A stretch of DNA of 64,000 bases from Myxococcota bacterium (GTDB lineage Bacteria; Myxococcota_A; UBA9160; UBA6930), in the NCBI GenBank assembly GCA_028277885.1, contig JANQFK010000022.1, forward strand, positions 1-64,000, given 5' to 3'. This document shows positions 4,832 to 19,588 of this stretch, piece after piece. A program made the position numbers and the translations under genes. Numbering within the stretch: position 1 is the stretch's first letter; each line of letters starts with the position of its first letter. The notes under the pieces are model-generated. The model was given only the letters and a program-made list of their open reading frames with translations, was not told the origin of the DNA and searched no databases.

Positions 4832-6625
4832 TCAGGAGGCCGGCAGGGCGCGGGCCCAGGTCGGGATCCCGCGGGAGAGCTGGGTCTCCAGCTCGGCCGC
4901 CGAGCTGGGGCGCGCGAACAGGTAGCCCTGCATGCGGGTGCAGCCCCGCTCGAGGAGCACGTCCCGCTGGGCCCGGTTCTCGACGCCCTCGGCCACCACC
5001 GCCACGCCGAGCTCCCGGGCGATCCCGATCAGCCCGGCGGTGATCGTCATGTCGGCGCTGCGCTTCGGGATCTCGCTCACGAAGCTGCGGTCGAGCTTGA
5101 TGGTGTCGACGCTCAGGTGCTTGAGGGCCGAGAGGGCCGAGTAGCCCGTGCCGAAGTCGTCGATGGCGATGCGCACGCCGAGGTCCTGGATGCGGCGGAC
5201 CGTGGTGAGGGTGATGCCGCGCTCCTGGAGCACGCTGCTCTCGGTGATCTCCAGCTCGAGGCGGTCCGGGGGGAGCGCGCTGTCGCGCAGCGCCCGGGCC
5301 ACCACGAGGGCGAAGCTCGGGTCGGCGAGCTGGCGGGTGGAGACGTTCACGCCGATCTTGACGCCGCGTCCGCGCGGGTCGTTCCAGGCCGCGCCCTCGT
5401 TGCAGGCGGTGCGCATCACCCACTCGCCGATGGGGTGGATCAGCCCGGTCTCCTCGGCGATCGCGATCAGCTCCGGGGTGGCGACCGTGGTCCGGTCGGG
5501 CCCGCGCCAGCGCAGCAGCGCCTCCACGCCGTAGAGCGTCCCCGTCTCGAGATCGATCTGGGGCTGGTAGGCGAGGCCGAAGCCCTCCTCCTCGATGGCG
5601 CCGCGCAGGCCGTTCTCGAGCTCGAGGCGCCGGCTCACCACGGAGTTCATGGCCTCGGAGTAGTGGGAGAAGCGGTTCAGGCCCTCGGACTTGGCGTGGT
5701 ACATCGCCGTGTCCGCGTTGCGCACCAGGGTCTCGGGGTCGAGCCCGTCGCGGGGGTAGAGCGCGATCCCGATGCTGGCCGTGACGCGGTAGTCGCTGCC
5801 CTCGAGCGCGCAGGGGGCGCTGATCGCCTCGATGAGCTTCTGGCAGACGCGGCCCGGGTCGTGCTCGCGCTTCACGTCCTGGAGCATCAGGACGAACTCG
5901 TCGCCGCCGAGCCGGGCCACCATGTCGCTCGAGCGCAGCACGCCGCGGATGCGCTCGGCCACGGTGCGCAGGAGCTGGTCGCCCGCCGGGTGGCCCAGGG
6001 TGTCGTTGATGTTCTTGAAGCGGTCGACGTCCAGGAACAGGACGCCCACCTCCTTGTTGCTGCGCGAGCTGTAGGCCAGGGTGCGGCGCAGCTGCTCCTC
6101 GTAGGCGAGCCGGTTGGGCAGGCCGGTGAGGGAGTCGTGGGTGGCGAGGTAGTGCTCCTGGCGCCGGGCCTGGGCGAGGTCGGCGAGGATGCGGTGGCGC
6201 TCCACGGCGTGGCGCACGGTGCGGTGCACGAGGCGCGGCTCCGGGTCGCGCTTCACCAGGTAGTCCTGGGCGCCGTAGCGCAGCGCCTCGAGCGCCAGGA
6301 CCTCGTCGTCCTGGGACGTCATCGCGATGATGGGCACCGTGGCGGCGGCGACGCGAGCCCGGGCGAGCGCGTTGAGCCCCTCGCCCTCCTCGAGGCTCAG
6401 GTCGAGGAGCACGCACTGGAAGTCGCCGTCGCGCAGCGCGCGCAGGCCCTGCTCGAGGCCCTCCACGTGGGTGATGTCGAAGTGAACCTCCCGAGCCTGG
6501 GAGAGAATCGCTTCGATCCACTTCGCGTCGTCGGCCTCGTCCTCGACGAGCAGGACCGGGATTCGCGGGATCGCGGCGGGACGCGCCGCGTCTGCGATGG
6601 CGGTAGCCGACATGAGCTGTGTCAT
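4832..6625 (-). CDS. Response regulator with GGDEF and EAL domains (c-di-GMP turnover)
   Basis: About 597 aa from the ATG at 6625 (MTQLMSATA); a TTG at 6631 and an ATG at 6613 are alternatives, and no strong ribosome-binding site separates them. Domains in order: receiver (VLLVEDEADDA, phospho-acceptor Asp in VLLDLSL, Lys in YLVKRD), GGDEF with intact signature RLGGDEFVLM, and EAL with EALLRW, NVSTRQ, DDFGTGYS, KLDRSF, AEGVE and QGYLF. Both catalytic domains keep their key residues, so it could make and degrade cyclic-di-GMP, with one activity perhaps dominant. No partner histidine kinase is adjacent; it stands alone between two unrelated clusters. Confidence 0.92.
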   Translation of the reverse strand: MTQLMSATAIADAARPAAIPRIPVLLVEDEADDAKWIEAILSQAREVHFDITHVEGLEQGLRALRDGDFQCVLLDLSLEEGEGLNALARARVAAATVPIIAMTSQDDEVLALEALRYGAQDYLVKRDPEPRLVHRTVRHAVERHRILADLAQARRQEHYLATHDSLTGLPNRLAYEEQLRRTLAYSSRSNKEVGVLFLDVDRFKNINDTLGHPAGDQLLRTVAERIRGVLRSSDMVARLGGDEFVLMLQDVKREHDPGRVCQKLIEAISAPCALEGSDYRVTASIGIALYPRDGLDPETLVRNADTAMYHAKSEGLNRFSHYSEAMNSVVSRRLELENGLRGAIEEEGFGLAYQPQIDLETGTLYGVEALLRWRGPDRTTVATPELIAIAEETGLIHPIGEWVMRTACNEGAAWNDPRGRGVKIGVNVSTRQLADPSFALVVARALRDSALPPDRLELEITESSVLQERGITLTTVRRIQDLGVRIAIDDFGTGYSALSALKHLSVDTIKLDRSFVSEIPKRSADMTITAGLIGIARELGVAVVAEGVENRAQRDVLLERGCTRMQGYLFARPSSAAELETQLSRGIPTWARALPAS

Positions 6626-10054: not shown

Positions 10055-10058
<4 letters not shown>
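9471..10058 (-). CDS. Tat-exported lipoprotein, probable small partner of the GMC oxidoreductase
   Basis: 195 aa. The N-terminal HRRAFLRGVAAASAAGLVPLGC combines a twin-arginine motif with a lipobox (VPLGC), so it is predicted to leave by Tat folded and be lipidated. The remainder resembles gluconate 2-dehydrogenase subunit 3-type proteins that accompany GMC flavoproteins. The GTG start overlaps the GMC stop by 4 bp (GTGA), tight coupling that supports a two-subunit dehydrogenase. The flavoprotein has no signal peptide of its own and could be exported with this partner; that is inference. Confidence 0.6.
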
Positions 10059-11527
<1,469 letters not shown>

Positions 11528-11568: not shown

Positions 11569-12165
11569 GTGCTCGAGCTCGCCGCCGAGACGTCGCCGGA
11601 GTGGGCCCGCTGGGCCGCCGCCCACCGCGACGAGGTCCTGGTGGACCACGCCCACTGCGAGAAGAAGGCGGCGGGCGCGGCGGTGAACCTGATCTTCCGC
11701 CACCCCGAGCGTCCCGGCTGGCTGGCGCCGCTCTCGGCCCTCGCCCGGGAGGAGCTCTCGCACTTCGAGGGCATGCTCGCCCACCTCGCGCGTCTCGGCG
11801 TGGCGTTCGGGCGCCAGCGTCCCGGCCCCTACGGCGGGAAGCTCCACGCCCGGGTCCGTGGCCGCGAGGGCGAGCGGCTGCTCGACACCCTGCTGTGCTG
11901 CGCCCTCATCGAGGCGCGCAGCTGCGAGCGCCTGGGCCTGCTCGCCGCCGAGCTCGACGACCCGGAGCTGGCCGCCTTCTACCGCGGGCTCCACGCCGCC
12001 GAGGCGCGGCACCACCGGCTCTACCTCGATCTCGCCGCCGAGGTGGCGCCCGCTGCGGAGGTGGCGACGCGCCTCGCCGAGCTGGCCCGCCACGAGGCCG
12101 CGGTGCTGGCCGCCACGCCCCCGCTGCCGCGGCTCCACGCCGGCGGGCTGGGGGGGTGCGATTGA
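11569..12165 (+). CDS. miaE: tRNA-(ms2io6A37) hydroxylase (MiaE)
   Basis: 198 aa di-iron hydroxylase acting on the hypermodified A37 of tRNAs. Diagnostic motifs: DHAHCEKKAAGAAV, REELSHFEGML, IEARSCERLGLL and EARHHRLY, which supply the Glu/His ligands of a ferritin-like di-iron site. Length matches the short MiaE branch. The GTG start follows a short leader, divergent from the GMC gene. The promoter of the next operon overlaps its stop region (12162-12191). Confidence 0.9.
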   Translation: MLELAAETSPEWARWAAAHRDEVLVDHAHCEKKAAGAAVNLIFRHPERPGWLAPLSALAREELSHFEGMLAHLARLGVAFGRQRPGPYGGKLHARVRGREGERLLDTLLCCALIEARSCERLGLLAAELDDPELAAFYRGLHAAEARHHRLYLDLAAEVAPAAEVATRLAELARHEAAVLAATPPLPRLHAGGLGGCD

Positions 12166-12191
12166 CGCGGGGCCGAGCCCTGTGGTACCGA
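12162..12191 (+). promoter_or_regulatory. Predicted sigma70-type promoter of the cobalamin-regulated operon
   Basis: TTGACG (12162-12167), 18 bp, TACCGA (12186-12191). It places transcription start near 12198, just before the first riboswitch helix. It overlaps the miaE stop codon. The same TTGAC-spaced pattern recurs upstream of other operons in the window. Confidence 0.5.
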
Positions 12192-12204
12192 GCCCGCTGG
12201 ACAT

Positions 12205-12430
12205 AGACGCTGGAAGGTGGCCCCGCTCCCTCGGAGCGGGGCGGCTCGACCTCCCGGGCACGGCGCCGCGCTGGCGCCCGCGACCGGGGGGGAGGGCTTC
12301 GGGAAGCCGGTGGGAATCCGGCACGAGCCCGTCGCTGTAACCGGACGCAATCCTCGAAGGACGCCACTGGCCCGCCGGGCTGGGAAGGCTCGAGGACCGG
12401 AGTCCGGAAGTCAGAAGACCGGCCTCCCAG
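12205..12430 (+). promoter_or_regulatory. Cobalamin riboswitch
   Basis: Hallmark segments occur in the right order: GCCGGTGGGAATCCGGC (12306-12322), B12-box GAGCCCGTCGCTGTAA (12325-12340) and the distal AGTCAGAAGACCGGCC (12409-12424). They are preceded by helices such as CCCCGCTCC/GGAGCGGGG around 12222-12239. The family binds adenosyl- or methylcobalamin and normally represses B12 uptake or synthesis genes. Here it precedes a five-gene operon containing a BtuB-like receptor, exactly the expected target. The subclass was not determined. Confidence 0.92.
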
Positions 12431-12463
12431 CGAGCTCAGCACTTCCTTCGGGAGCAAGGAGGC
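12422..12463 (+). promoter_or_regulatory. Possible riboswitch expression platform
   Basis: GCCTCC (12422-12427) can pair with GGAGGC (12458-12463). The first arm overlaps the last conserved riboswitch strand (12409-12424), so the two pairings would be mutually exclusive, as in a switch. No U-tract follows, so this is not a canonical intrinsic terminator. Confidence 0.4.
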
Positions 12464-12644
12464 GAGTCGTCGTGAGCGGCGCATTCCCGGTCGGCATTCC
12501 TGCCCGCGCGTCGCGTCGCTCACGCCGTGTCCATCCGCAGGGGGCCAGGTCGGCGCCCGCGGTGCACCGGCCCCCGGCTGGAGCGACCCGCTCCCTCGTA
12601 CCCCACCGGGCGGCGTCGCCGCGCCGCCCCACCGGAGGCACCCC
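12464..12644 (+). other. Structured untranslated leader between riboswitch and first gene
   Basis: No gene is seen. Two perfect inverted repeats could fold: CGTGAGCG/CGCTCACG (12471-12478 with 12517-12524) and GGGGGCC/GGCCCCC (12540-12546 with 12569-12575). The leader ends in a strong ribosome-binding site, GGAGG at 12634-12638, 6 bp before the ATG. At about 180 nt past the aptamer it is longer than a minimal expression platform needs. Confidence 0.6.
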
Positions 12645-13598
12645 ATGGCCCCTCGCTGGCTGCGCATCCATCTTCCCTTCTTCCTCTCCGCAATCCTGAC
12701 CGCGACGGCTCACGCCGCTCCGATCGCGCCGGACTTCGTCGAGAGCCAGATCGCCACGCCCGACGTCGCCACCGGCGACCTGGTCGTCGTCGGTGACACG
12801 CTCTTCGTCGGGATCGGCCCCTTCCTCGACCAGGCGATCGTCCGCATCGGCCCGGGTGGCACCACGGTGATCGCCGACGGCTTCCAGTCCCTCGCGGGCC
12901 TGGCCTACGACGCGGTGGGCGACCGGCTCGTGGCCGGCGACAACGTCGAGCAGAACGTCTTCTCCATCGCGTCGCCGTTCGGGAGCTTCGCGAGCCCCGT
13001 GGATCGCGGCACGCCGCTCATCTCCGCGGGCGGCCCGATCCCGGGCATCTCCGACGTGGTGCTCGACCCGGCCGATCCGACCGCGCTCCTCGTCTCGGAC
13101 GCCGACGACGACTTCGTGAGCCCCGACGGCAAGCTCTGGCGGGTCGCGGGAGGCGCAGCCACGGTGCTGCAGTCCGGCTTCGACTTCGCTGCTGGTCTGG
13201 CGGCCGACGTCGGCGGCCTGTTCCTCGGCGAGTCCGACGCCATCACCTTCGGCGGCACGGTGCTCGGCCTCGCGCCCGACGGCACGGGCACGCCCTCCGT
13301 CCTCGCCTCGGGCCTGCCGGGCCAGTTCGACCTGGAGTTCGACGCCAACGGCGACCTGCTCTCCACCTCGGGGTCCCTGGTCCAGCGCATCGACGCGACC
13401 ACCGGCGCCGTGGAGACCCTCGCGACGGGCTTCGTCTTCGCCGCCGGCCTGGCAACGAGCGGCGAGTCGTTCTACGTGATCGAAGGAGGCAGCCCCACCG
13501 CCGCGGTCTTTGCCTTCGATCCCGTTCCCGAGCCTTCGGTGGCGCTGCTGCTCGGGCTGGGTCTGGTCGGCATGGCACGGGTGACGGCGCGCCAATGA
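12645..13598 (+). CDS. Secreted PEP-CTERM propeller-like protein, first gene of the B12 operon
   Basis: 317 aa. Sec signal peptide (residues 1-24, ending AHAA). The body has repeated beta-strand units such as DLVVVGDTLFVGIG, DRLVAGDNVEQNVFSI and GLFLGESD, fitting an NHL/YncE-like beta-propeller. The C-terminus VPEPSVALLLGLGLVGMARV followed by TARQ is a PEP-CTERM sorting signal (VPEP, hydrophobic helix, basic tail), processed by exosortase in other bacteria. No exosortase is in the window. Strong SD. Its stop overlaps the receptor start (ATGA). A surface or extracellular corrinoid-binding role is inferred from its place behind the riboswitch. Confidence 0.8.
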   Translation: MAPRWLRIHLPFFLSAILTATAHAAPIAPDFVESQIATPDVATGDLVVVGDTLFVGIGPFLDQAIVRIGPGGTTVIADGFQSLAGLAYDAVGDRLVAGDNVEQNVFSIASPFGSFASPVDRGTPLISAGGPIPGISDVVLDPADPTALLVSDADDDFVSPDGKLWRVAGGAATVLQSGFDFAAGLAADVGGLFLGESDAITFGGTVLGLAPDGTGTPSVLASGLPGQFDLEFDANGDLLSTSGSLVQRIDATTGAVETLATGFVFAAGLATSGESFYVIEGGSPTAAVFAFDPVPEPSVALLLGLGLVGMARVTARQ

Positions 13599-15595
13599 CC
13601 GCCGCCCGGGCTGCGGCCGGCCTGGCGGCCCTCGTCTTCGCGGCCCCGCTGCTGGCGGAGCCGGCCCCGGAGAGCGAGCCGCCCGTGGTGCGCCGGACCG
13701 GACCGGCCCGGGTCGAGACCGTGGTCCCGAGCGAGCTCCCCGAGGACCCCACCGCGTTCACGACCGTGATCGAGGTGGACGACTTCGAGGCCGAGGCGGC
13801 GAGCGTCGAGGAGCTGCTCGGAGACGCCGTCGGCGTGCAGGTGCGCCGGTTCGGGGGCCCGGGGGAGCGCTCCGAGGTGTCGATCCGGGGCTCTACCTCG
13901 TCCCAGGTCGTCGTGCTCCTCGACGGCGTGCGGCTCAACACCGCACAGTCGGGAACCGTGGACCTCTCCACCGTTCCCCTCTCCCTGCTCGACCGGATCG
14001 AGGTCTCCCGGGGCGGAGGGTCGGTGCAGGCGGGGAGCGACTCCATCGGGGGCGTGATCAACCTGGTCACGCGGCGGCCCGGAGCCGAGACGGAGCGGCG
14101 CGTCGAGGGCAGCGCGGGCTCCTTCAGCACCTGGCAGGGGGCCGCGTTCCACCGCGGCCGCGTCGGCGGCACCGAGCTCGTGGCCGGCGTCGACGGGTTC
14201 ACGACCGGCGGCGACTTCGAGTTCCAGCGCGCCTTCGAGACGCTTCCCGGGGGCGGCTCGGCGCCGCGTCTGCCCAATCCCCTCGAACGCATCAACAACC
14301 GCTCGCGCCGCTCCTCGTCCCTGGTCCGCATCGGTCGCGAGCTCGGGGACCGGACCCAGCTCTCGTTCCTGAACCACCTCGCCTACACGAGCCGTGGGCA
14401 GCCCGGACTCGACAACACGTCGGACGCCGTCGGGGGGCAGCAGCGCGACGCGTGGGAGCGACGAACGCGAGTCGTGTCCTCCCTGCTCCTGGAGCGCTCC
14501 GAGCTGCCGCTCTCGACGATCGGACGCGCGCGCCTGTACCACCGCTGGGAGCGCACCCGCTTCGACGATCCGGCGCCCCAGCTCGGCGGGCCCATCGACA
14601 CCCTGAACCGCAACGGCGCCTTCGGGCTCGACCTCGAGCTCGACGGCTCGTTCCGGACCGGCTGGATCGACCATCGCCCCCGCTTCGTCGGTGCGCTCCG
14701 CCGTGACACCCTCGACTCGAACGAGTCCGACGACCAGCGGCGCCGCTCGCTGGGGCTCGCCGTCCAGGACGATCTCAGCCTGTTCGGCTCGCGCCTGCGT
14801 CTGGTGCCCGCCCTCCGACTGGACGACACCGAGGGGTTCGGTGCCGAGTACCTTCCACGGATCGGGGTGGCGGTGGAGCTGCTGCCCGGGCTGCGCCTGC
14901 TCGCCAACGCCGAGCGCTCCTACCGGGCGCCCAACCTCGACGAGCTCTTCTTTCCGGACAAGGGCTTCCTGCGCGGAAACCCGGGGCTGCTTCCGGAAGA
15001 GGCGGAGAACCTCGATGCCGGCCTCCAGCTCGCCCTGGCCCGGCTGGGTCCGCTCGAAGACGTGAACGTCGAGCTCGTCGGCTTCCGCAACGAGATCGAG
15101 AACTCGATCGTCTTCGTCCTGGTGAGCTCGGGCACCGTGGCGCCCGTCAACACCGGCGACGCCCGGATCGAAGGACTCGAGGTCTCGCTCTCCTTCGGCG
15201 TGGCGGGCTGGATTCGGGTCGCCGCCAACTACACCGACCTCGACGCCGAGCTGAGCTCGCTGGGCACGCCGCTGCCCGGCCGCGCGGACCGGGAGGCCTC
15301 GGTGCGGGTCGAGCTGGGGCCGCCCTCGGGCGTGCTGCGCCTGACCGGCGAGCTCCGGCACACGGGCGAGATCCCGGTGAGCTTCTCGGGGCTCACGGCG
15401 CTCTCGGACCGGACCGTCTACGACGCCAGCATCGTCGCCGACCTCACCCGCTTCGCCCCGCGGCTCGGATTGGAGCTGCGGTCCCTGCTGCTCTCCTTCG
15501 GTGGCCGGAACCTCACGGATCGGGCCGTGCGGGACGCCCAGTTCTTCCCCCAGCCGGGCCGCTCGCTCTTCCTGGGCTTCCAGGTGGGCTTCTGA
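13595..15595 (+). CDS. btuB: TonB-dependent outer-membrane receptor, BtuB-like (cobalamin/corrinoid)
   Basis: 666 aa, close to BtuB length (about 600). Signal peptide (LAALVFAAPLLAEPA), then a plug domain (about residues 60-170) with VEELLGDAVGVQVRRFGG, EVSIRGSTSSQVVVLLDGVR, SLLDRIEVSRGG and IGGVINLVTRR. It is followed by a 22-strand-type barrel ending in Phe (LFLGFQVGF), the outer-membrane assembly signal. Specificity is inferred from the upstream cobalamin riboswitch and general BtuB resemblance. No btuFCD ABC genes are in the window. It overlaps both neighbours (ATGA, TGATG), so it is translationally coupled. Confidence 0.88.
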   Translation: MTAARAAAGLAALVFAAPLLAEPAPESEPPVVRRTGPARVETVVPSELPEDPTAFTTVIEVDDFEAEAASVEELLGDAVGVQVRRFGGPGERSEVSIRGSTSSQVVVLLDGVRLNTAQSGTVDLSTVPLSLLDRIEVSRGGGSVQAGSDSIGGVINLVTRRPGAETERRVEGSAGSFSTWQGAAFHRGRVGGTELVAGVDGFTTGGDFEFQRAFETLPGGGSAPRLPNPLERINNRSRRSSSLVRIGRELGDRTQLSFLNHLAYTSRGQPGLDNTSDAVGGQQRDAWERRTRVVSSLLLERSELPLSTIGRARLYHRWERTRFDDPAPQLGGPIDTLNRNGAFGLDLELDGSFRTGWIDHRPRFVGALRRDTLDSNESDDQRRRSLGLAVQDDLSLFGSRLRLVPALRLDDTEGFGAEYLPRIGVAVELLPGLRLLANAERSYRAPNLDELFFPDKGFLRGNPGLLPEEAENLDAGLQLALARLGPLEDVNVELVGFRNEIENSIVFVLVSSGTVAPVNTGDARIEGLEVSLSFGVAGWIRVAANYTDLDAELSSLGTPLPGRADREASVRVELGPPSGVLRLTGELRHTGEIPVSFSGLTALSDRTVYDASIVADLTRFAPRLGLELRSLLLSFGGRNLTDRAVRDAQFFPQPGRSLFLGFQVGF

Positions 15596-17172
15596 TGCGG
15601 CGCTGGGGAGCGTGCGTCGGGATCGCGACGACGTCCCTGCTGCTGGTCGCGGGGTCCTGCGGCGGCGGCAGCGGCAGCGGGGGGCGCGGCAGCGTCGACC
15701 GCTCCGGAAGCGTCGGCGGCCCCGACGGGGTGGCGTGCACGCTGCTGCCGGGGATCTTTCCACCGGGCCTCGACTTCGTACCGGGCCTGCCCGACCGGCT
15801 CGTGGCTGCGAACCTCTCGCCGGCCGGCCTGTTTCCCTTCGAAGCCACGTCGCCGCCGGTGGTCTCGGCGCCGGGGGCCCCGCAGATCCCGCCCGACAGC
15901 GACGGGGACGGGCTGCCCGACTTCCTCGCCCCCGTGCTCGACGGGGTGCTGGCCGTGAACCCCGACCTCGCGCTGCTCACGGCCAGCACGAACGAGCAGG
16001 TGCTGTTTGTCGACCCCGAGAGCGGCGAGCTGCGCTTCTTCGAGATCGAGGTGCCGGCCGGATTCGACCCCGACGCCTACCGCTTCCTCCCGGCCCCGGG
16101 GACCAGCGCCTTGCGGACCGCGGTCTCGACCCGGGCCTGCGTGCCCCTTCCGCCCGGCGCCGTGGACTCCGCCGGCGACCCCTTCGCGGGCTCCGCGGAT
16201 TGCGCCCCCGGTCGTGTCTCGACGAGCTTCACCTCGGGCGTCGCCGTCGCCGCGGGGCGGCTCTTCGTCTCCACCTCGAACCTGGGCGCCCGCCAGGGCG
16301 CAGCGGACACGCAGTTCCTGCCCGGCACGGTGCTGGTGTTCGAGCTGGACCTGGGTCTCGACCCGCCGCGGGTGCGCCCCGACCCGGCGGCGCCCTTTCT
16401 CCTCACGACGGCCTTCAACCCGACCCACGTGACCCGCGTGGTGACGCCGGGCGGGCGCGAGCTCGTCCTCGTCACCCTCTCCGGCGCGTTGGGGCTGATC
16501 CTCGACGACCCCGGCACGCCGCAGCTCGAGGCGGGCGGCATCCCCCTCAGCGACGCGGCGATCGACGTGATCGACCCCGCGACGCTGGAGCCGATCGCGA
16601 CGATCCCCCTCGGCCTGGCGGCTCCGTCCTTCGACCGGCTGGCGGTGGACCCGAGCGGTCGCGTCGCCTTCACGGGAGGCAACGCGGCGCGGGAGCTCTT
16701 CGCGGTGGATCTGGCCGCCCTCGACTTGGCACCCACGACGGGTCCGCCGGCGGTGCTCGACGGGACGGATCCCCGCGCGAGCAACGCCGACGCACGGATC
16801 TTCGACGCGACCCGACCGCTCGCGATCCCCGGGATCGCGGGCGGCGCTCCGCCCGAGACCTGCGCGGGATTCGTCACCAGCACCGCCTTCGACGCCGTGG
16901 GCGGCGAGCTCTTCGCACTCGACTTCTGCGACGGGACCCTCGCCCGGGTGAGCGTGGACCTCTCGGGCGCTCCGCCGGTCCCCGTGCCGGGCGACCGCTT
17001 CGTGGTGGACCGGGTGGTTCCCGTGGCCGCGCCCGTGGGTGCGGGCTCCCTGGGCCTCTCCCGAGCCCCGGGAGCGCTGCGCGTCCGCCCGGGCCCGGGT
17101 CAGCCGGACCTCTTCTTCCTCCTGAGCCTCGAGGAGGGGCAGCTGTGCGCCGCCGACAGCACCTCGCTCTGA
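15595..17172 (+). CDS. Surface lipoprotein, probable beta-propeller, B12 operon
   Basis: 525 aa. Lipoprotein signal with lipobox LVAGSC (Cys about residue 20) and a Gly/Ser tether. A DSDGDGLPD loop near residue 101 is a thrombospondin-3/EF-hand-like calcium motif. Repeated strand blocks such as DPATLEPIATIPLGLAAPSF and DRLAVDPSGRVAFTGGN look like a YVTN/YncE-type propeller. Several Cys occur. In Bacteroides, BtuG is a propeller lipoprotein that sits beside BtuB and binds cobalamin very tightly; the resemblance here is in fold type, anchoring and position, not in demonstrated sequence homology. It begins 1 nt into the receptor stop (TGATG). Confidence 0.7.
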   Translation: MRRWGACVGIATTSLLLVAGSCGGGSGSGGRGSVDRSGSVGGPDGVACTLLPGIFPPGLDFVPGLPDRLVAANLSPAGLFPFEATSPPVVSAPGAPQIPPDSDGDGLPDFLAPVLDGVLAVNPDLALLTASTNEQVLFVDPESGELRFFEIEVPAGFDPDAYRFLPAPGTSALRTAVSTRACVPLPPGAVDSAGDPFAGSADCAPGRVSTSFTSGVAVAAGRLFVSTSNLGARQGAADTQFLPGTVLVFELDLGLDPPRVRPDPAAPFLLTTAFNPTHVTRVVTPGGRELVLVTLSGALGLILDDPGTPQLEAGGIPLSDAAIDVIDPATLEPIATIPLGLAAPSFDRLAVDPSGRVAFTGGNAARELFAVDLAALDLAPTTGPPAVLDGTDPRASNADARIFDATRPLAIPGIAGGAPPETCAGFVTSTAFDAVGGELFALDFCDGTLARVSVDLSGAPPVPVPGDRFVVDRVVPVAAPVGAGSLGLSRAPGALRVRPGPGQPDLFFLLSLEEGQLCAADSTSL

Positions 17173-18086
17173 TCGCGTCCGGCCTGCTCGGGCTCGTGGC
17201 CCTGCCGGTGCTCGACGTCCCGGCGTCCCGGTCGGAACGCCCGCCGGCCGGCGATGGCCCGGGGAGCGCGGGGCGGGAGCCGCCCCATGTTCCGGCTGCC
17301 TCCGGCCCGTCGCGTGCGTCGCCTGCCACGCCGGGCGACCCGGCTGCCCGCGCACCGGTGCGATCGACCTCCGTCGGCGCCGCCCGGGAGGTGGCGCGGC
17401 CCGCCGAAGCGGTTGCGGGGGCCGAGGTTCGCGGCGTTGCGGCGCCGGACCCGGGAAGACCCGGCTCCTCGGCGGGGGCGCCGCAGCTCGACGCCATCGT
17501 GGCCGACCCGGGTGCGCTCACGGTGCGCGTCACCGGCGTCGATCCGCGCGCGCCGCGGCTCCTCGATCTCTGGCACGTCCGGGAGGATCCGGTCCGTCGC
17601 ATGACGCTCGGCGGTCCGGTGGAGATCCGCCACGCGGTCGGCCTCGCCGCGCGCGGCTGGAGCGACTCCTCGGGAGAGATCCACTTCCCTCCGGTGCCGG
17701 TCGCCCCGGGATCCGTGCGCTTCGCGGCCGCACCCGAGGGCGTTCATCCCCTGGCGGCGCCGGCCTCGCCGCTCCAGGGCGTGACGCGCCCCGCGCCCGA
17801 GCCCCCCGGCTTCGAGGTTCTCGAGCAGGGCGGCGGAGAGGTGCGTCTCAGGGTCTCGCCACGGGAGCCGGGCGGGCGCGTCGTCGTCGCCGACTCCGCC
17901 CTCGAGCCCCACGCCGTGGAGGCGCTCCCGGCGGGCCCGGGCCCCCGGCCGCTCGTCTTCGAGGTGGACCTCGCGCTCGGCCCGCGGGCCCACTCGCTGT
18001 TTCTGGCCCAGGAACGTCCGGACGGACAGCGCTCGAGCTGGGCGCGCGTCGCACTGGACCTCGACTCCAAGGAGGAGAAACCATGA
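17145..18086 (+). CDS. Exported protein of unknown function, B12 operon
   Basis: 313 aa from a GTG (17145) inside the end of the preceding gene, with a strong SD (GGAGG at about 17134-17138) embedded in that gene; the two reading frames overlap 28 bp. The N-terminus RRRQHLALIASGLLGLVALP is a signal or anchor helix. Residues 30-115 are Ala/Pro/Gly-rich, probably a disordered spacer. Residues about 120-310 form a beta-rich region with no motif I recognise (LLDLWHVREDPVRRMTLGG; FEVLEQGGGEVRLRVSPREP). Spacer plus domain would suit an envelope-spanning or surface accessory, but no function is assigned. Confidence 0.75.
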   Translation: MRRRQHLALIASGLLGLVALPVLDVPASRSERPPAGDGPGSAGREPPHVPAASGPSRASPATPGDPAARAPVRSTSVGAAREVARPAEAVAGAEVRGVAAPDPGRPGSSAGAPQLDAIVADPGALTVRVTGVDPRAPRLLDLWHVREDPVRRMTLGGPVEIRHAVGLAARGWSDSSGEIHFPPVPVAPGSVRFAAAPEGVHPLAAPASPLQGVTRPAPEPPGFEVLEQGGGEVRLRVSPREPGGRVVVADSALEPHAVEALPAGPGPRPLVFEVDLALGPRAHSLFLAQERPDGQRSSWARVALDLDSKEEKP

Positions 18087-19135
18087 AGGCCCTTCCCACC
18101 ATCGGAGCCCTCGCTGGCCTCGCCGTCGCGCTCCTCGGCGCCAACTGCACGCCCGCGAAGCCCCGGATCAAGCCCGTCGAGCCCGCCGTCGGCTCCACCG
18201 TCACCTGGGCACCGATCGACGTGGTGTTCGACCTGGCCCAGAGCGTCGACGTCGGCACGCTCCTCGTCGAGCTCAACGGAACGGACGTGACCGGCTTCTT
18301 CCAGGTCGGGCCCCCCGTCGGTGGGCGCATCCTCGTGAGCGCCGACCGGCTCTGGCTGGACGGGGCCCTCCTGCAGGGACCGAACGTCGTCCGGCTCGAG
18401 GCCCGCTTCAACGGCAACGTCGTCTCGAGGAGCGTCCCCTTCGAGGCCGAGGGCGACGCCTACGCCGATGCGCTGGTCCAGTACACCGCGGGGAGCGGCG
18501 GGGGGTTCGGGGCGAGCGGCCTGCCCGACGTCGTGACGGGCCCGCCCTCGGGTGCGGGCTACTTCCAGGGCTCGTTCGACGTGGTGTCCCTCGGCCTCGG
18601 GGGCTCCATCGAGCTCGAGTTCGTCGACAACGTGGTCGTGGATGGCCCGGGCTTCGACCTCACGATCTTCGAGAACGCCTTCCTCACCCTCCTGGGCCTG
18701 ATCACCGACTCGGTGTTCAGCGAGCCGGGGCGGGTGCTGGTGAGCCAGGACGGGGTGGGCTGGGTGGCGTTCCCCTGTGCGCTCGACGTCCTCGAGCATC
18801 CCCTCTACCCCGGCTGCGCGGGCGTCTACCCCGTGTTGTCGAACGCGCTGTATCCCGCGACGGGCCACGCGTCGATTCCGAGTGAGACGCCCGTCGACGA
18901 TCTGCTCGGAGTCGATGCCACCACCCTGGTGCCCGAGGGCTCCGGTGGAGACAGCTTCGACCTCGCCGACGTGGGCCTCACCTGGGCGCGCTTCGTCCGG
19001 ATCGAGGCGGCTCCCTTCGTGGTCGGTCCCGTGGGCGCCGATACCGCGGGCTTCGACCTCGACGCCGTCGTGGCGGCGCGCTCCGCCCCGGCGACGGACC
19101 TGAACGGCAACGGCATCCCGGACGCGGTCGAGTAG
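18083..19135 (+). CDS. Cell-surface lipoprotein, last gene of B12 operon
   Basis: 350 aa. Signal peptide with lipobox LLGANC. An Ig-like N-terminal part (KPVEPAVGSTVTWAPIDVVF) is followed by a domain with FDLTIFENAF and EPGRVLVSQDGVGWVAFPC, reminiscent of surface proteins found beside BtuB-type receptors in other phyla (recalled, not checked). It ends with DLNGNGIPDAVE, a calcium-loop-like motif comparable with DSDGDGLPD in the lipoprotein two genes upstream. ATGA overlap with the preceding gene and an AAGGAGGAGA ribosome-binding site. Its stop faces the TonB-C lipoprotein 3 bp away. Confidence 0.7.
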   Translation: MKALPTIGALAGLAVALLGANCTPAKPRIKPVEPAVGSTVTWAPIDVVFDLAQSVDVGTLLVELNGTDVTGFFQVGPPVGGRILVSADRLWLDGALLQGPNVVRLEARFNGNVVSRSVPFEAEGDAYADALVQYTAGSGGGFGASGLPDVVTGPPSGAGYFQGSFDVVSLGLGGSIELEFVDNVVVDGPGFDLTIFENAFLTLLGLITDSVFSEPGRVLVSQDGVGWVAFPCALDVLEHPLYPGCAGVYPVLSNALYPATGHASIPSETPVDDLLGVDATTLVPEGSGGDSFDLADVGLTWARFVRIEAAPFVVGPVGADTAGFDLDAVVAARSAPATDLNGNGIPDAVE

Positions 19136-19138
19136 GCC

Positions 19139-19588
19139 CTAGCGGGGAGCGTCGATCTCGAAGCGGATGGGGACCTCGATGCGTCCGTAGACCGCCGGGA
19201 AGGGGCCGGCCCGGCTCACGGCACGCAGGGCCGCCCGATCCAGCGCGGGCGAGCCCGAGGAGCGCTCGATGCGGACGTCCCGCGCGTGGCGTCGGCCGTC
19301 GAGAGCGAAGCCCACGATCGCCTCGCCCTCGACGCCTCGGTGGCGGGCGAGGCTCGGGTACTCGAGGGCGCCTTCGACTCGACGCCGGATCTCGTCGAGG
19401 CGGTCGGCGAGGGGCCGGCCCGCAGGGACGGCATCCATGACCGGGGGCCGGGCCGGCACGTCGACGGGACGGACCGACGGCTCCGTGGGCTCCGCTGGGG
19501 TCGCGCACGCGAGGGCCAGGCCAGCACCCATGCCGATCCCTGCGGCGAGGACCGCGAGCCGGCCACGGTGGGAGTCACGGACCCTCAA
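19139..19588 (-). CDS. Lipoprotein with TonB C-terminal domain
   Basis: 149 aa from a TTG start that overlaps the upstream aminotransferase stop by 4 bp (TTGA). The N-terminus RLAVLAAGIGMGAGLALACA is a lipoprotein signal with a plausible lipobox. The C-terminal ~75 residues (VEGEAIVGFALDGRRHARDV ... SSGSPALDRAALRAV ... PFPAVYGRIEVPIRFEI) match the TonB-C fold. A usual TonB has an N-terminal membrane anchor and a long Pro-rich spacer; here the linker is only about 50 residues. It may be a periplasmic TonB-box binder for the neighbouring receptor or an unrelated TonB-C lipoprotein. The start codon is the weakest part. Confidence 0.65.
   Translation of the reverse strand: MRVRDSHRGRLAVLAAGIGMGAGLALACATPAEPTEPSVRPVDVPARPPVMDAVPAGRPLADRLDEIRRRVEGALEYPSLARHRGVEGEAIVGFALDGRRHARDVRIERSSGSPALDRAALRAVSRAGPFPAVYGRIEVPIRFEIDAPR

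Follow-up and report, generated by a model that had tools for sequence, protein, structure and literature searches.

Does an operon of predicted surface proteins, headed by a cobalamin riboswitch in a myxobacterium, encode a corrinoid capture system comparable to those known from the gut? How B12 is captured at the cell surface is understood from gut Bacteroides, and the window examined here (the whole stretch of DNA analysed, 64,000 nucleotides) contains a cobalamin riboswitch followed by five coupled genes, hereafter P1 to P5, that a first-pass annotation had read as surface proteins grouped around a BtuB-like receptor. The same annotation had assigned the host to the proteobacteria; its relatives identify it instead as a myxobacterium, the best matches among named records, in a genome-collection scan with a narrow P3 alignment, being Myxococcota or Deltaproteobacteria MAGs (Myxococcota were formerly classed in Deltaproteobacteria). 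By linking gene order, family profiles, predicted structures and recurrence in related genomes, we consider it likely that the operon specifies a BtuB-BtuG-BtuH-like corrinoid capture system, repressed by corrinoid and located at the outer-membrane surface.

Operon layout and riboswitch control

The five genes lie on the forward strand. P1 (12645-13598) encodes an exported PEP-CTERM protein that is probably a beta-propeller (ScyD/ScyE-like); P2 (13595-15595) encodes a BtuB-like TonB-dependent outer-membrane receptor; P3 (15595-17172) encodes a putative surface lipoprotein with a predicted beta-propeller fold in the position of BtuG; P4 (17145-18086) encodes an exported protein that accompanies P3; and P5 (18083-19135) encodes a putative surface lipoprotein with an Ig-like region and a BtuH-like (LIC_13355-like) domain. 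The ORFs and couplings described earlier were confirmed base for base: ATGA overlaps join P1 to P2 and P4 to P5, TGATG joins P2 to P3, and P3 overlaps P4 by 28 bp, P4 starting at a GTG that is preceded by its own Shine-Dalgarno sequence, AGGAGGGG, at 17132-17139. All five ORFs can be regarded as real, since each is conserved as a protein in the same neighbourhood of related genomes. A sixth gene, absent from the first-pass annotation, begins a few bases past P5 in convergent orientation and encodes a TonB C-terminal-domain (TonB_C) protein (19139-19588, minus strand; PF03544, E=1e-14) with an uncertain TTG start. Upstream of the operon are genes for a MiaE-like tRNA hydroxylase (11569-12165, plus strand) and a GMC oxidoreductase (10055-11527, minus strand), both apparently unrelated to it.

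The cobalamin riboswitch proposed to head the operon scores well above threshold, its aptamer (RF00174; 12300-12421, plus strand) being recognized by cmscan with 83.3 bits (E=5e-19) against a gathering score of 31.5 bits, and the B12 box GCCACTG (12363-12369) falls inside it. No second RF00174 match was found in the 5.19 Mb of the assembly, which is ~90% complete. Downstream of the aptamer, a possible anti-Shine-Dalgarno segment, CCUUCGG (12445-12451, plus strand), is the sole 7-mer of the leader that pairs over its full length with the Shine-Dalgarno region CCGGAGG (12632-12638) before P1, and folding prediction for the leader recovers the same pairing, in a fold that is no more stable than shuffled sequence (z=-1.3). 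A search of the leader for an intrinsic terminator found no terminator-like site. Together with the pairing, this makes it plausible that the riboswitch controls the operon at translation, through sequestration of the Shine-Dalgarno region.

The receptor, its predicted propeller partner and their recurrence

P2 carries plug (PF07715) and barrel (PF00593) domains, both far above cut-off. Its best NCBIfam model, first among 33 families, is TIGR01779 (BtuB), and its top six PDB sequence matches are all BtuB (E ~1e-33); the same NCBIfam search also reveals resemblance to haem and siderophore receptors. The earlier description of P2 as BtuB-like holds for best family and best PDB sequence matches and stops short of the equivalog level, the TIGR01779 score being 173.7 bits against a cut-off of 599.7 bits, and strong family evidence points to a BtuB-type TonB-dependent importer. 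In a maximum-likelihood tree of 22 receptors from P3 loci and 14 riboswitch-controlled receptors of the same order without P3, the former constitute one clade (support 100/99), so that P3 goes along with one specific lineage of receptors. Plain riboswitch-controlled receptors without P3 are present in many genomes of the order. A TonB_C homologue follows the cobalamin receptor in four other P3 loci and in 10 plain-receptor loci, mostly on the same strand as the receptor, and the TonB_C protein of the window is probably the energiser of P2. It is possibly a lipoprotein.

Both P1 and P3 had been called propeller-like. For P3 this is borne out by an AlphaFold2 model (26-member alignment; pLDDT 89, pTM 0.88) that is all beta outside the signal peptide and some short helices, and for which Foldseek returned beta-propellers from the PDB, including WD40 proteins and E. 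coli YncE (TM-score ~0.75 by target length). The lipobox cysteine, C22, is retained in at least 90% of members, and P3 is kept directly downstream of P2-type receptors. At the sequence level, neither the window P3 nor any of the 26 members matched PF16819 (DUF5074), the P3 profile retrieved no propeller from PDB sequences, and phmmer with the single P3 sequence returned nothing relevant from the PDB; the PF16819 matches found elsewhere in the phylum are to genes other than P3. On these grounds, membership of P3 in the PF16819/BtuG family was rejected. Of the BtuG-like layout envisaged earlier, the fold and position of P3 stand and sequence likeness does not: P3 resembles BtuG in its predicted fold, its lipoprotein character and its place beside the receptor, and no link between the two could be detected by sequence. 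A comparison of P1 with P3 gave no support for their being paralogues.

P4, which has an N-terminal hydrophobic segment, a linker of low complexity and a C-terminal region that is conserved, yielded no match in Pfam or the PDB. It is conserved after P3, riboswitch-less P3 loci included, and P3-P4 paralogue pairs with neither receptor nor riboswitch nearby are found in four genomes (L046, L048, L050, L052), forming a nested clade on a long branch (support 100/100); these pairs speak against a role confined to B12. Two more P3 copies without a receptor (L053, L054) are cut by contig ends. Close to both the P3-P4 pair of L050 and the P3 fragment of L053 there is a pilT-like gene. P4 had been listed as an unknown accessory of a B12 machine; its retention in the four receptor-less pairs suggests that its role most likely lies with P3 and not with the binding of corrinoids, and on this pattern of co-occurrence it would assist or anchor P3.

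P3 was detected in 26 of 61 near genomes and in 33 of 284 sampled Myxococcota genomes. The DNA flanking each P3 locus was scanned for RNA families and compared with the window proteins. Receptor-P3 pairs occur at 33 loci, the window included, which span several families of the order and another family of the class (L109, L110). The conservation next to cobalamin riboswitches that had been anticipated is evident, a riboswitch lying upstream in 26 of the 27 receptor-P3 loci that have upstream DNA on the contig, and the one locus without (L034) being near a contig end. Gene order varies around the receptor-P3 core. Behind the riboswitch, the window has P1, receptor, P3, P4 and P5; L035 has receptor, P3, P4, P1 and P5; L031 has DUF4465, receptor, P3, P4 and P5; and L038 has P5, DUF4465, receptor, P3 and P4. 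Two further arrangements were observed: at L036, a second cobalamin riboswitch (6274-6569, minus strand) lies just past the TonB gene at the operon end, and in another phylum, Planctomycetota, an ORF for a P3-like propeller (L108:535-2628) is located directly at a cobalamin riboswitch (740-871).

Candidate capture proteins

P5 had also been regarded as an unknown accessory, a view replaced here by likeness to BtuH. The profile of the P5 family (27 members) retrieved a single PDB sequence, BtuG1 of Bacteroides thetaiotaomicron (8BLW), over residues 377-497 (E=2e-7), a part of BtuG1 described as a C-terminal extension with homology to BtuH2 (PMC10404256). Both BtuH2 and this H-domain of BtuG1 are described as B12 binders (PMC8941943, PMC10404256). 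The family profile gave no sequence match to BtuH2, the long forms of P5 alone reached 8BLW at E=0.3 only, and phmmer with the single P5 sequence returned nothing relevant from the PDB, so that the link to BtuH rests on the whole-family profile and the fold search. In the latter, run with Foldseek, the predicted structure of P5 (pLDDT 84, pTM 0.80) retrieved BtuH2 (7BIZ) at rank 1 (E=1.7e-7) and BtuG1 at rank 5, with low whole-chain TM-scores (~0.3) and many Ig domains among the remaining matches. In BtuH2, Ig-like domains precede the part that binds B12 (PMC8941943); similarly, the window P5 has a beta-rich N-terminal part, which is missing from P5 relatives placed before the receptor. Profile and predicted fold thus make a moderate, convergent case for P5 as a BtuH-like member of the cluster, and P5 appears to be the best-supported candidate B12 capture protein of the operon. 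Weak to moderate matches to NF033170 (LIC_13355) were obtained for 20 of the 27 family members, including the window P5 (31.3 bits, below the curated cut-off of 120 bits). A relationship between P5 and DUF4465 is unsupported, as hhalign aligns the sorting signal only.

P5 is present in 177, and RF00174 in 245, of the 284 Myxococcota genomes. For the 80 P5 genes checked, namely those in genomes with a listed riboswitch, at least 49 have a riboswitch on the same strand no more than 8 kb upstream, and for at least 39 of these the distance is within 1.5 kb, against a chance expectation of ~0.1% per P5 gene (a rough estimate based on 8 kb and genomes of ~5 Mb); outside the order to which the window belongs, the 8 kb limit holds for at least 27 of 56 P5 genes. 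At three loci (L109, L110, L113), P5 is preceded by a riboswitch of its own, which stands back-to-back with, and divergent from, that of the receptor. Back-to-back cobalamin riboswitches with capture proteins on both sides are also seen at L118. A further locus contains P5-type and DUF4465 domains, with PEP-CTERM-like segments, in one uninterrupted frame (L047:12601-14214, minus strand), which suggests a fused, two-headed capture protein; in six other genomes (G041, G047, G224, G229, G261, G271) the P5 match falls in open frames of 536-602 aa, lengths that hint at fusion as well.

The PEP-CTERM label given to P1 is upheld by a PF07589 match of 21.5 bits (cut-off 20.7) and by an exosortase encoded in the genome (Exosortase_EpsH, E=4.5e-55). 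Its propeller assignment is looser. P1 matches NF033206 (ScyD/ScyE) weakly (E=2e-8), as do all five homologues compared, and its profile gives weak matches only, several of them to propeller enzymes; P1 is probably, in this loose sense, a propeller-type (ScyD/ScyE) protein. One homologue of P1 (L144) stands alone behind its own cobalamin riboswitch.

The place of P1 in the operon is taken in relatives by another family. DUF4465 (BtuJ) is a jellyroll family for which B12 binding was found in eight of eight members tested, Myxococcota are among its holders, and the propeller Pfam PF16819 (DUF5074) is one of its neighbours (PMC13398666). In P3 operons of relatives, DUF4465 proteins with PEP-CTERM signals are encoded between riboswitch and receptor, and at three loci (L149, L150, L151) DUF4465 is alone behind a riboswitch. 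The family (PF14717) is present in 14 of the 61 genomes searched; a search of the window genome found none, and P1 occupies that slot.

Proposed mechanism, alternatives and known systems

The window genome encodes proteins with B12-binding domains as well as FecCD-type permeases, and a search of it for CbiC found none. Given that the genome is only ~90% complete, missing biosynthesis is weak evidence; taken together, these features suggest that the host is a corrinoid scavenger, and with CbiC not found, the operon is probably the main corrinoid entry route of the cell. Under scarce cobalamin, the riboswitch, presumed to act by occluding the Shine-Dalgarno sequence, would leave the transcript translatable. 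P2 would import corrinoid as a BtuB-type TonB-dependent receptor, energised by the neighbouring TonB protein, and P3, to judge from its fold and pairing, would sit on P2 as a BtuG-like lid, bind corrinoid and hand it over, with P4 in a supporting role. P5, with its moderately supported BtuH-type homology, may be a further capture protein, as may the PEP-CTERM propeller P1, considering its position in the DUF4465 slot and its own riboswitch elsewhere.

As an alternative, the operon could serve some other corrinoid-linked substrate (cobalt, another metal complex or a tetrapyrrole), which the capture proteins would then bind, while the riboswitch would merely tie expression to B12 sufficiency. 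Cobalamin riboswitches also regulate cobalt transporters, and the distance of P2 from the BtuB equivalog cut-off, along with its resemblance to haem and siderophore receptors, would be compatible with such a role. P2 nevertheless matches BtuB far better than any other family or PDB protein, and neither the DUF4465 proteins of relatives, B12-binding in eight members, nor the BtuH-like P5 points to free metal; we regard another substrate as very improbable. It is unlikely, too, that P2 alone imports B12 and that P3-P4 is a general surface module, for adhesion or the envelope, that was put under B12 control and in which the propeller shape of P3 is coincidental. In favour of such a module are the versatility of propellers, the many genomes of the order with a plain riboswitch-controlled receptor and no P3, and the well-supported clade of P3-P4 pairs lacking receptor and riboswitch, one of which is followed by a pilT-like gene. 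At 33 loci, however, P3 comes directly after one particular receptor clade, as a receptor partner would, and the receptor-less clade may represent a derived use because it is nested and long-branched.

Shared fold class, receptor-adjacent position and similar lipoprotein nature could reflect true orthology with BtuG, P3 then being a diverged Bacteroidota member acquired with the receptor, but none of its 26 members matches PF16819/DUF5074, its profile retrieves no PDB propeller and the PF16819 matches of the phylum are other genes; we doubt this origin. We judge it about evenly balanced whether Myxococcota, independently of Bacteroidota, recruited an unrelated propeller, P3, as the corrinoid lid for a clade of BtuB-type receptors, accompanied by an exchangeable capture set (P5, DUF4465 and P1) of which each can stand alone under its own riboswitch, with the P5-type proteins forming an undescribed, phylum-wide class for B12 scavenging.

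Enterobacterial BtuB shares with P2 the receptor fold, riboswitch control and the best PDB sequence matches. E. coli BtuB functions with no lipoprotein partners at the surface, and the plain receptors that show this layout in the same order as the window form a clade separate from the P3-linked receptors. DUF4465/BtuJ (PMC13398666) shares operons with receptor-P3 pairs in relatives, whereas the window genome lacks it, and P5 has no profile similarity to it apart from the sorting signal. Leptospira LIC_13355 (NF033170; PMC11891782), whose family model P5 matches below cut-off, falls with P5 into one wider family; PMC11891782, which examines the binding activities of the Leptospira protein, does not mention a role in B12, and its kinship with P5 provides a functional hypothesis for this lipoprotein.

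The btuB-btuG-btuH loci of B. thetaiotaomicron (BtuB1G1, BtuB2G2, BtuB3G3; PMC10404256, PMC6143338, PMC8941943) have in common with the window a riboswitch, a BtuB-type receptor, an adjacent propeller lipoprotein, a BtuH-type protein (Ig-like part plus B12 domain) and extra surface lipoproteins. They differ from it in that the window propeller, P3, cannot be linked to BtuG by sequence, in that the window adds a PEP-CTERM propeller, P4 and an adjacent TonB gene, in that inner-membrane BtuCD/F genes are not in the window operon, and in that the host is a myxobacterium. In the open-access literature, coverage of which is incomplete, we found no description of P3, P1 or Myxococcota P5-type proteins as B12 proteins. 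If the reading proposed here is true, environmental Myxococcota would have a second, differently assembled version of surface capture, and B12 uptake aided by lipoproteins would be a general strategy and not a speciality of the gut. With a BtuH-like family in most sampled genomes of the phylum, our comparison suggests that the strategy is far more widespread, and uses more types of parts, than has been described, and it offers testable functions for three unannotated families (P1, P3 and P5). A natural comparison would be that of BtuG in B. thetaiotaomicron with P3 in Myxococcota, unrelated propellers that would both act as the lid of a receptor.
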